From: Prevotella sp.
GTDB taxonomy: Bacteria > Bacteroidota > Bacteroidia > Bacteroidales > Bacteroidaceae
NCBI GenBank assembly: GCA_017458225.1
Contig: JAFTFX010000011.1
Location: 54,472-118,471 of the forward strand
Direction of reading: 5' to 3'
DNA: 64,000 nt
Positions 57,909 to 60,886 of this stretch are shown one piece after another. Made by a program: the position numbers and the translations under genes. Within the stretch, counting starts at the first letter, position 1; each line of letters starts with the position of its first letter. The notes below the pieces were generated by a model. The model did no database searches. It was not told the origin of the DNA and saw nothing but the letters and a program-made list of their open reading frames with translations.

Positions 57909-59375
57909 ATGGATTTCGAGAATGAAAAGAACATGGAAGGCGCATCAGTGAGCGCTAACGACAAATCAGAAACACAGGGAAGCCGTGACGGTTATCAGAA
58001 AGAATTCAGACCCGTGGGCCGTTCGCCGCGTCCCCGTATTCACACGGTGCAGAACGAACGTCCCAGTTTTAACAAGTATAAGAGCGAGGACGATGGCGAG
58101 TTCCGTCCCGAAGGCTTTGGGGCCAGTCTTCAGAGTCAGCCCCAGCAGCGTGGCGGCTATCGCCCACGTACCAACAACGGCTATCAGCCTCGCCAGCAGG
58201 GCGAGGGCTACCAGTCGCGTGGCGGCTATCAGCCCCGTCAGCAGTATGGTCAGCAGGAGGGTGGCTATCAGCCTCGTGGCGGCTATCAGCAGCGTCAGGG
58301 CGGTTACCAGCAGCGCCAGCAGGGCGAGGGAGGCTATCAGCAGCGCGGCGGCTATCAGCCCCGTCAGCAGGGTGGCTTCCAGCAGCGTGGTGGCTATCAG
58401 CAGCGTCAAGGCGGCTATCAGCCTCGCCAGCAGGGCGAAGGCTATCAGTCGCGTGGCGGCTATCAGCAGCGCCAGCAAGGCGAGGGCTACCAGTCGCGTG
58501 GCGGCTATCAGTCCCGTCAGCAGGGTGGCTTCCAGCCTCGTGGCGGCTATCAGCAGCGTCAGGGCGGTTACCGTCAGCATACGGCCGACTATGATCCCAA
58601 TGCAAAGTACAGTTTGAAGAAGCGTATAGAATATAAGGAGCAGAACTTCGATCCCAACGAGCCCATCCGTCTGAACAAGTTCCTGGCCAATGCCGGTGTT
58701 TGCAGCCGTCGCGAGGCCGACGAGTTCATTCAGGCAGGCGTGGTGACCGTCAATGGTGAGGTAGTCACCGAACTGGGCACCAAAATCATGCGCACCGATG
58801 TGGTACGCTTCCACGAGGATTCTGTTTCGTTGGAGAAGAAGGTCTACGTTCTTCTCAACAAGCCGAAGGACTATGTCACCACGAGCGACGATCCCCAGCA
58901 GCGCAAGACCGTGATGGACTTGGTGAAGAATGCCTGCCCTGAGCGCATCTATCCCGTAGGTCGTCTGGACCGTAACACCACTGGTGTGCTGCTCTTGACC
59001 AACGATGGCGATCTGGCTTCGAAGCTGACCCATCCGAAGTTCCTGAAGAAGAAGATTTATCATGTATATACCGACCGCAATGTGACGGCCCACGACCTGC
59101 AGCAGATTGCCGAAGGTGTGATGCTTGAAGACGGTGAGATCAAGGCCGATGCCATTGAGTATGCCGATCCTGTGGACAAGAAGCAGGTGGGCATCGAGAT
59201 CCATTCGGGCAAGAACCGCATTGTGCGCCGCATCTTCGAGAGCCTTGGTTACAAGGTGACCAAGCTCGACCGCGTTCAGTTTGCCGGTCTGACCAAGAAG
59301 AACCTGCGTCGTGGCGAGTGGCGCTATCTGACACAGGAAGAGGTGGACCGCCTGCGCATGGGAGCATACGAGTAA
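57909..59375 (+). CDS. rluB: RluB/RsuA-type pseudouridine synthase with Gln/Gly/Arg-rich N-terminal repeat tail
   Basis: 488 residues. The C-terminal half is a standard large-subunit rRNA pseudouridine synthase: S4 domain ([19 protein letters not shown], about 250-310) and catalytic domain with Asp in [18 protein letters not shown], plus [16 protein letters not shown]. The N-terminal 235 residues are disordered; residues about 78-225 are repeats of [22 protein letters not shown] and GGFQPR type. RGG-like tails bind RNA in other proteins. The extension is encoded by near-identical DNA repeats, so its length may vary. Confidence 0.92.
58138..58580 (+). repeat. Coding tandem repeats in rluB
   Basis: Imperfect in-frame units of 21-45 bp built from GGCGGCTATCAGC and CGTCAGCAGGG blocks. 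About fifteen GGY or GGF units are encoded. Confidence 0.9.
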
Positions 59376-59428: not shown

Positions 59429-60886
59429 ATGAAACGAACAAAAGTTATCGACGTGCTGCAGAGCACGGAATATGGCAAGGAAGTCTGTGTGAAGGGCTGG
59501 GTGCGCACGCACCGCTCATCGAAGGCTGTCGACTTCATTGCCTTGAATGATGGCTCGACCATCAAGAATGTGCAGGTGGTGGTAGATCCTACCAAGTTCG
59601 ACGACCAGCTGCTGAAGCAGATCACAACAGGTTCATGCATCTGTGCCCTGGGCACGCTGGTGGAAAGCCAGGGTGCAGGGCAGAGCAGTGAGATTCAGGC
59701 TACGGCGCTGGAAATCTACGGTCTCTGCGACAACGACTATCCCATGCAAAAGAAGGGACAATCGTTCGAGGCCATGCGCAAGAACGCCCACATGCGTCTG
59801 CGCACTAACACCTTTGGTGCCGTGATGCGCATTCGCCACAACATGGCGATGGCCATCCACACCTACTTCCATGAGCATGGCTTCTACTATTTCCACACGC
59901 CGCTGATTACTGCCAGCGACTGCGAGGGTGCCGGCAACATGTTCCAGGTGACCACGAAGAACCTCTACGACCTGAAGAAGGACGAGCAGGGCAAGATTAT
60001 CTACGACGATGACTTCTTCGGCGAGCAGACCTCGCTGACCGTGAGTGGACAGCTGGAAGGCGAACTGGGCGCAACGGCTCTGGGAGCCATCTATACTTTC
60101 GGTCCCACGTTCCGTGCCGAGAACAGCAACACACCGCGCCACCTGGCCGAGTTCTGGATGGTGGAGCCCGAAGTGGCCTTCATCGACCAGGAAGAGTTGA
60201 TGGACTTGGAGGAAGACTTCATCAAGTACTGCGTGCGCTGGGCACTCGACCACTGCAAGGACGACCTGGAGTTCCTGAACAAGATGATCGACAAGACGCT
60301 CATCGAGCGTTTGGAGGGCGTGCTGAAGGAGACCTTCGTGCGTCTGCCTTACACCGAGGGCATCAACATCCTGCAAGAGGCTATCAAGAACGGCAAGAAG
60401 TTTGAGTTCCCCTGCAACTGGGGCGACGACCTGGCCTCGGAGCATGAGCGCTACCTTGTGGAGGAGCACTTCAAGAAGCCCGTCATCATGACCGACTATC
60501 CGCGTGCCTTCAAGTCGTTCTACATGAAGCAGAACGAGACCTCCCCCAGCCCCTCCGAAGGAGGGGAGCCTGGCAGCGTGGGCTACAAGGGAGCTGTGGC
60601 TCCCGGTCCCACCATGCAGGGCACCGATGTGCTGTTCCCGCAGATTGGTGAGATCATCGGCGGTTCTGTCCGTGAGGAGAGCTACGACAAACTGATGAGC
60701 GAGGTGGAGCGCCGCCAGATGGACCAGACCCACCTGTGGTGGTATCTCGACACCCGTCGTTGGGGCTCTTGTCCCCATGCCGGCTTCGGTCTGGGCTTCG
60801 AGCGTCTCATCCTCTTCGTTACGGGCATGCAGAACATTCGCGACGTGATTCCGTTCCCACGCACTCCGAAGTCTGCTGAGTTCTAA
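59429..60886 (+). CDS. asnS: Asparaginyl-tRNA synthetase with in-frame palindromic insert
   Basis: Class IIb synthetase charging tRNA-Asn. 485 residues from the ATG at 59429; the longer frame starts inside rluB. N-terminal OB-fold anticodon domain ([19 protein letters not shown]), then the catalytic core with motif 2 ([22 protein letters not shown]) seen as [15 protein letters not shown], and motif 3 [12 protein letters not shown]. Residues about 371-394 ([12 protein letters not shown] to APGP) interrupt the usual short link between YMKQNE and [18 protein letters not shown]. The insert is in frame, Gly/Pro/Ser-rich and surface-loop-like. Confidence 0.95.
60539..60610 (+). repeat. Palindromic element inserted in asnS
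   Basis: Two hairpins: CCCCTCC GAA GGAGGGG (60550-60566) and GGGAGC TGTG GCTCCC (60589-60604). Much more G/C-rich and palindromic than flanking asnS. About 72 bases, a multiple of three, with no stop in the coding frame. Confidence 0.75.

Follow-up and report, generated by a model that had tools for sequence, protein, structure and literature searches.

How does a palindromic DNA sequence come to lie, in frame, inside a gene of the essential type such as asnS, which encodes asparaginyl-tRNA synthetase (AsnRS)? The best-known cases of selfish palindromes in frame come from Rickettsia and from some genomes rich in REPs. An earlier note on the window, the 64,000-nt stretch of a Prevotella sp. 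contig analysed here, had proposed that this asnS tolerates a dispersed palindrome much as Rickettsia genes tolerate their palindromic elements (RPE). Our analysis bore out this core idea, since the core of the palindrome is multi-copy in the same genome and the other copies, like that in asnS, lie in frame inside genes. Judged from sequence comparison, the asnS stretch is very probably a single copy of a mobile REP-like element, here called REP-I, that is translated and tolerated in a loop of the enzyme.

Results

Borders of the element in asnS

The asnS frame is open throughout, from the ATG at 59429 to the stop codon ending at 60886, and the PF00152 match (Table 1) places AsnRS in the class II synthetase family of Pfam. 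The insert had been described as open and in frame, and as about 24 codons (72 nt) long. The open frame was confirmed, and the insert as delimited here, 33 nt, is 11 codons; in contrast, alignment of asnS from relatives (110 distinct loops) set its borders at 60539-60571 and did not uphold the longer extent. Only the left half of the 72 nt is element, because the right half is a clade-specific loop present in element-free relatives. It is only for this clade-conserved half that relatives carry the loop with unrelated DNA, the outcome that the note had named as speaking against its proposal.

Table 1. Features of the asnS locus (positions of the window)
Feature	Position	Strand	Basis
asnS, asparaginyl-tRNA synthetase, 485 aa	59429..60886	+	ORF; Pfam PF00152, E 9.7e-63 over residues 116-479; PDB 6pqh, E 6.1e-155
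Inserted element, best delimited: 33 nt, 11 codons, residues 371-381	60539..60571	+	Relatives' loops compared; 3' extension AGCCT common with G160
REP-I core, CCTCCCCCAGCCCCTCCGAAGGAGGGG: C-rich tail CCTCCCC, 3 nt, hairpin CCCCTCC-GAA-GGAGGGG	60540..60566	+	Exact pattern match
Hairpin core, 17-mer CCCCTCCGAAGGAGGGG: 7-bp stem, 3-nt (GAA) loop	60550..60566	+	
Clade loop, outside the element though inside the coordinates of the earlier note	60572..60610	+	Present in element-free relatives
Second palindrome, GGGAGC-tgtg-GCTCCC, best read as codon coincidence in GAVAP	60589..60604	+	

The 11-codon element consists of a preceding A, the REP-I core and AGCCT, the last as in the copy of a related genome (G160). 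REP-I would replace about 4-5 loop codons of AsnRS with 11, in a loop already longer in the clade; read from the alignments, this is a net gain of 6-7 codons, the element itself accounting for about 33 nt. Query residues 373-394 have no counterpart in the solved AsnRS 6pqh and appear as an alignment gap. Because the structure model of AsnRS is poor (mean pLDDT 60.8), our description of the site as a flexible loop rests on alignments; the hydrophilic insert peptide is probably tolerated because the site is such a loop. The asnS copy is the sole one in the window at up to 3 mismatches.

Two strong palindromes had been claimed at this site. The first, the core hairpin, is real and multi-copy. The second was rejected as part of the element, because it consists of conserved GAVAP codons and because a stem of 6 at this site occurs in six of 90 distinct segments (our own included), with no longer stem in any of them; it is best read as a coincidence of codons. 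Neither is strong in terms of folding: as single-stranded RNA, they were no stabler than shuffles of equal dinucleotide make-up (z -0.40 for the element and -1.75 for the second palindrome). Hairpin stability was therefore rejected as evidence for the element, since the folding does not exceed what composition would give. The evidence is recurrence, not folding energy.

Most related AsnRS have more than the few residues that the note expected at this place. The long GY-type loop is found in 94 of the 110 distinct loops, 62 of which have 34-35 residues, and our own has 41. Fifty-five loops belong to two base types, QN..QGEGS (22) and QN..T.DGGS (33), followed by (V/I)GYKG...TMQGTDV, and six of the 110 show a short form of 20 residues.

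REP-I copies in the same genome

Our genome is a draft, 74.7% complete. The search for further copies proposed in the note gave five exact places for the 17-mer core, asnS included, and two with one mismatch, while the 27-nt pattern CCTCCCCNNNCCCCTCCNAAGGAGGGG occurred at eight places at up to 3 mismatches; the reversed controls gave none. Counting copies in and between genes, we found all eight places inside genes, six genes in total. Succinylornithine carbamoyltransferase and tsaD carry two copies each, arranged as a pair, and pyrG, asnS, lpdA and a GH35 beta-galactosidase gene carry one each; each of those in pyrG and the beta-galactosidase gene is paired with a second, more diverged copy. 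The pairs measured 102 nt in tsaD, 87 nt in pyrG and 87 nt in the beta-galactosidase gene, all divisible by three. At all eight places Pfam matches span the insert or flank it on both sides. Compared with solved structures, the inserts appear as gaps at 133-169 in TsaD (8iey), 161-183 in the carbamoyltransferase (1js1) and 134-160 in CTP synthase (9kao).

Distribution of REP-I

REP-I is widespread in the genus. At up to one mismatch it was found in 74 of 200 genomes, with up to 51 copies per genome, and the 200 genomes held 771 places against six for the reversed pattern. A scan of named genomes gave at least 116 stretches; the 80 titles among the matches listed, all of which we take to be Bacteroidota, include cultured Flavobacterium, Segatella, Hoylesella, Marinilabilia and Arenibacter.

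Copies were assigned with simple ORF callers, which placed our own beta-galactosidase copy in an antisense ORF and missed dapF, and those within 60 nt of a locus end or on loci shorter than 1,500 nt were left out. Among the matches listed in named genomes, 67 of 132 distinct copies lay inside ORFs and 65 outside (mean ORF cover 0.886); in the genus loci, where the classification covers only a subset of the genus-wide places, the figures were 27 and 12 of 39 (ORF cover 0.877). The note's statement that matches are scattered between genes thus held for other species and failed for REP-I in our own genome. Relative to an ORF cover of about 0.88, REP-I is over-represented outside ORFs in both sets. 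Loss of most insertions that hit genes would produce such a surplus; the survivors in genes are still many.

In-gene copies are not only an artefact of metagenome assembly, because cultured Flavobacterium genomes carry them: twice in LeuRS, and in a class I tRNA-synthetase ORF, RecG and a P-type ATPase. In the LeuRS of F. columnare, the residues encoded by the element pair with a loop that 1h3n already has, and no net gap of the element's length arises. Separately, three proteins that look ValRS-like by eye (L073, L160 and L172) carry REP-I at one shared position, before a QDED.LDTW motif.

Reading frame and pair geometry

All six frames of the REP-I core are free of stop codons, and on this basis its peptide is probably translated as part of AsnRS. 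The six frames are used unequally. Among the matches listed, two of them account for 65 of the 84 in-gene copies (ORFs of at least 150 aa) and read SPxPS(E/K/Q)GG or PP(L/S)EGxGE, with the other 19 in three further frames; a simpler ORF caller gave 69 of 89, again among the matches listed. The p-values for this bias, near 1e-16, are too small, because the copies are related and not independent. The gap within pairs was divisible by three in 9/10 pairs inside one gene, 2/4 outside genes and 1/3 mixed pairs. Frame preference and gap periodicity fit selection on the translated peptide.

These data also bear on whether the insert reaches the protein at all. In-gene hairpins that are skipped in translation are known from some mitochondria, a precedent for ribosomes skipping the element, or for its loss from the RNA, to give an AsnRS that lacks the insert. 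Such a bypass would need no open frame, no length divisible by three and no preferred frame, all of which are seen; we consider it extremely improbable and keep to a translated insert.

REP-I occurs alone, in tandem or as an inward-facing inverted pair, the last being commonest among near neighbours: of 102 such pairs, 62 were inward, 37 tandem and three outward. MITEs are defined by terminal inverted repeats together with a target-site duplication; the ends of the REP-I pairs are CCTCCCC/GGGGAGG. Unlike the inverted pairs elsewhere, the arrays at L052:1501-1791 (G168) and G016:C1:371739-371897 run head to tail, with 66- and 44-nt periods.

Two further families

A sister family, REP-II (CCCACCCCNNNCCCCTCCCNNNNAGGGAGGGG), was found at 16 places of our genome at up to one mismatch (control, 0) and in 18 of the 35 genomes asked (controls, 0). 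Eight of these places in our genome are plainly gene-internal, three fall in residues 1-35 of an ORF, where they may precede the true start codon, and five are outside, three of these 8-9 nt behind an ORF. The in-gene sites are in pyrG, gltB, dapF, dnaG, an AAA helicase gene, a GH28/43 ORF and, twice, a 1015-aa ORF that had no Pfam match at E 1e-8. The dapF gene (L374:1768-2727, own contig C4) has inserts at three sites, namely two REP-II copies and one other G/C palindrome pair, and despite them is open from start to stop over 320 codons; compared with 9mro, DapF shows inserts at the three sites, with the first two in part aligned to loops already present. In pyrG (L370:447-666), gltB (L370:2728-2893) and dapF (L374:2039-2270), two inward-facing REP-II copies bracket the gene's own sequence, an arrangement that no simple one-step insertion explains.

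The third family, REP-III (CCCGCNGGTTCTCCNGCGGG, in many cases preceded by GCCACTGTG or a similar sequence), encodes VPAGSPAG when read in the coding direction and occurs at 60 places in 21 of the 200 genomes (control, 3). The VPAGSPAG frame was open for at least 200 codons in 30 of 39 copies examined, nine of the 30 coming from one locus, and one further copy lies in a gene in the opposite orientation. At L400-L429 the layout is GCCACTGTG-CCCGCNGG-TTCT-CCNGCGGG, mostly in open frames and with complementary stem changes. Some copies (G173) are 33-nt tandem repeats in Pro/Ala-rich stretches, and part of the family may be ordinary low-complexity coding sequence.

The asnS loop in relatives

Exact REP-I was found in two of the 110 distinct asnS loops, our own (L009) and that of G160 (L069, NEASPNPSEGGEPYSIGYKG). 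The loop of G032 carries NEPVINPSQGEEAGSIGYKG, probably a decayed REP-I copy. By similarity of the DNA flanking the loop, G176 (0.917), G218 (0.914) and G186 (0.904) are slightly nearer to our own asnS than G160 (0.899), yet they have no REP-I in asnS. The flank tree, with 7/40 inner branches well supported, is compatible with one old insertion followed by losses or with two insertions. Dispersal, together with presence and absence among relatives, suggests that REP-I is mobile.

Other asnS loops carry other palindromes. One of them, CCAGACGGGTGAACCGTCTGG, was found at up to 2 mismatches once each in three of 21 genomes searched (G007, G083 and G112), each time at asnS, and looks private. We rejected the idea that all the others are private too, because the palindromes in G040 and G229 fit a hairpin pattern that is dispersed, with 24 places in 10 of 20 genomes (reversed control, 7). 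The palindrome of G033 lies outside this pattern and is grouped with them by eye only.

A private palindrome such as CCAGACGGGTGAACCGTCTGG is what would be expected if no mobile element were involved and the loops grew by template-switch mutations that copy a few bases inversely. This is hard to reconcile with REP-I, which is near-identical in six genes of our genome and present in over a third of the genus genomes searched, or with the dispersed pattern of the G040 and G229 palindromes, and we regard such an origin de novo as very improbable.

Some points favour a functional hairpin, one retained for a regulatory effect of RNA or DNA structure on asnS through pausing, mRNA stability or protein binding. 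Among the 28 longer asnS loops, 13 contain a perfect stem of at least 7, where codon shuffling gives 0.5 on average; under a stricter control that keeps the peptide, eight of the 28 reach p<0.05, with our own loop above this cut-off at p 0.06. In 38 of 47 typed REP-III matches the two unspecified letters of the stem complement each other, and between the G040 and G229 palindromes two stem positions have changed in a compensating way. Against regulation, a perfect stem of 7 is absent from all 64 shorter asnS loops, the same elements are found in unrelated genes, and, as described above, the folding follows composition. A role of this kind is improbable, and a tolerated mobile element remains our preferred reading.

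Reuse of the same loops

By comparison of aligned loops, the same sites in asnS, lpdA and pyrG carry different palindrome families in different species. The asnS loop has REP-I in our genome (G000) and G160 and REP-III-like palindromes in G040 and G229, with G033 added by eye. The lpdA loop has REP-I in our genome and REP-III at the same place in G040. For CTP synthase (pyrG), 35 genomes were asked, 23 gave a match and 18 proteins were aligned: the loop behind RRMLR holds a REP-I pair in our genome and G148 and a REP-II pair in one of two G034 copies, whereas at the REP-I site it is short in 10 of the 18 proteins and carries simple-repeat-like inserts in five others. The latter (L314-L317 and L334) resemble translated simple repeats of the LHSSL, KVKSEE and VDKLN types, not palindromes.

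Relation to known REP systems

In a broad sense REP-I is REP-like: it has a 27-nt core palindrome with an unpaired tail, is multi-copy, and most of its near pairs face inward. It could accordingly be a standard REP or REPIN moved by a Y1 (TnpA-REP) transposase, the RAYT system, to which it is similar in size, in its hairpin with unpaired tail and in its inward-facing pairs. Matches to Y1_Tnp (E<=0.001) occur in 111 of the 200 genus genomes, with one in our own at 2.8e-5, and the accessible part of PMC6006769 describes a Bacteroidetes subclass of TnpA-REP flanked by atypical repeated structures with copies elsewhere in the genome, a likeness by description only.

The two are nevertheless unrelated in occurrence: 44 genomes have both, 67 Y1_Tnp only, 30 REP-I only and 59 neither (Fisher p 0.46). 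The REP-I-rich genomes G003, G026, G188 (51 copies), G168, G177 and G163 have no Y1_Tnp match, and REP-I at up to 3 mismatches was absent from all 30 Y1_Tnp loci searched (about 3 kb each), two of which had REP-II-like copies. A REP linked to the Y1 transposase was rejected on these grounds, and we think RAYT-driven spread unlikely.

Identity with the GTAG or CGTC REPs was likewise rejected, as their tags are rare at the ends of 181 copies. GTAG/CTAC occurred no more than 8 nt from the 5' end in nine and from the 3' end in five, and CGTC/GACG in one at either end.

Discussion

Our results favour a simple course of events at asnS. REP-I would spread by DNA transposition or by template-switch copying, with a putative enzyme acting in trans; this is the least certain step. 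Selection would then act through which insertions survive: those that are out of frame, or that are read as oily, Trp-rich or Arg-rich peptides, would be lost, and their loss would leave mostly two of the six frames. REP-I probably does nothing useful for AsnRS and would be selfish or neutral DNA in genes.

In-frame palindromes are already known as a phenomenon, from Rickettsia RPE and from intragenic REPs. According to the accessible text of PMC2229807, RPE are palindromic repeats of 105-146 bp, found in frame in genes of conserved proteins and also between genes, and the RPE-bearing enzyme Gmk is reported to be active. REP-I resembles RPE in that the palindrome is dispersed and a single genome has it in frame in several genes; by description, it differs in its size of about 33 nt (87-102 nt for the three pairs measured) and its Bacteroidota host. 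The same text (PMC2229807) mentions the Correia elements of Neisseria and the ERIC-type MITEs of enterobacteria, which are small, non-autonomous and in some cases carry open frames that are fused in genes; again by description, these are larger than REP-I and live in other hosts.

Intragenic REPs are the closest precedent in size. As far as its accessible part goes, PMC3733652 describes REPs as palindromes of 20-40 bp, single or as dimers, predominantly head-to-head, and places GTAG and CGTC REPs inside ORFs that include tRNA synthetases and repair genes. It reports the CGTC type in Bacteroidetes, not tied to transposases, and suggests that in-gene REPs are neutral in linkers or loops. REP-I differs in having neither tag, a frame preference was measured for it, and in-gene placing is the rule in our genome (8/8 for REP-I, and 8/16 clearly interior for REP-II). 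The REPIN/BIME doublets of RAYT systems, like REP-I, form inward-facing inverted pairs with a spacer, but REP-I has no statistical link to Y1_Tnp in the 200 genomes. Coding palindromes in the mitochondria of Nematomorpha are likewise translated inside functional proteins; in contrast to REP-I, their arms encode conserved protein parts, according to the portion of PMC6649704 consulted.

Titles and abstract starts in the open-licence PMC literature gave no description of this Bacteroidota family, and none of six core strings was found in that literature. Nor did the literature searched yield its frame preference or the reuse of loops by different families.

In-frame palindromes are common here in a large group of bacteria, some of whose members are in culture, and lie in genes that include asnS, pyrG, dnaG, dapF and tsaD. 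Since related species offer natural element-free sites, the neutrality of the inserts is directly testable, as are the way in which the reading frame shapes the spread of an element and whether inserts create new protein linkers. Annotation is also affected, because the inserts look like odd insertions in conserved proteins.

It is plausible, if on balance a little short of probable, that REP-I, REP-II and REP-III are adapted to life inside genes, with preferred frames, soft hydrophilic linkers and repeated use of the same few loops of core proteins. If so, the three families would be coding selfish DNA that diversifies core enzymes, and the coding frame would be part of the element's fitness.

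Elsewhere in the window, at 57909-59375, an ORF for a pseudouridine synthase (RluB-like by eye) has a long N-terminal part rich in Gln, Arg, Gly and Tyr, with GGYQPRQQ repeats.
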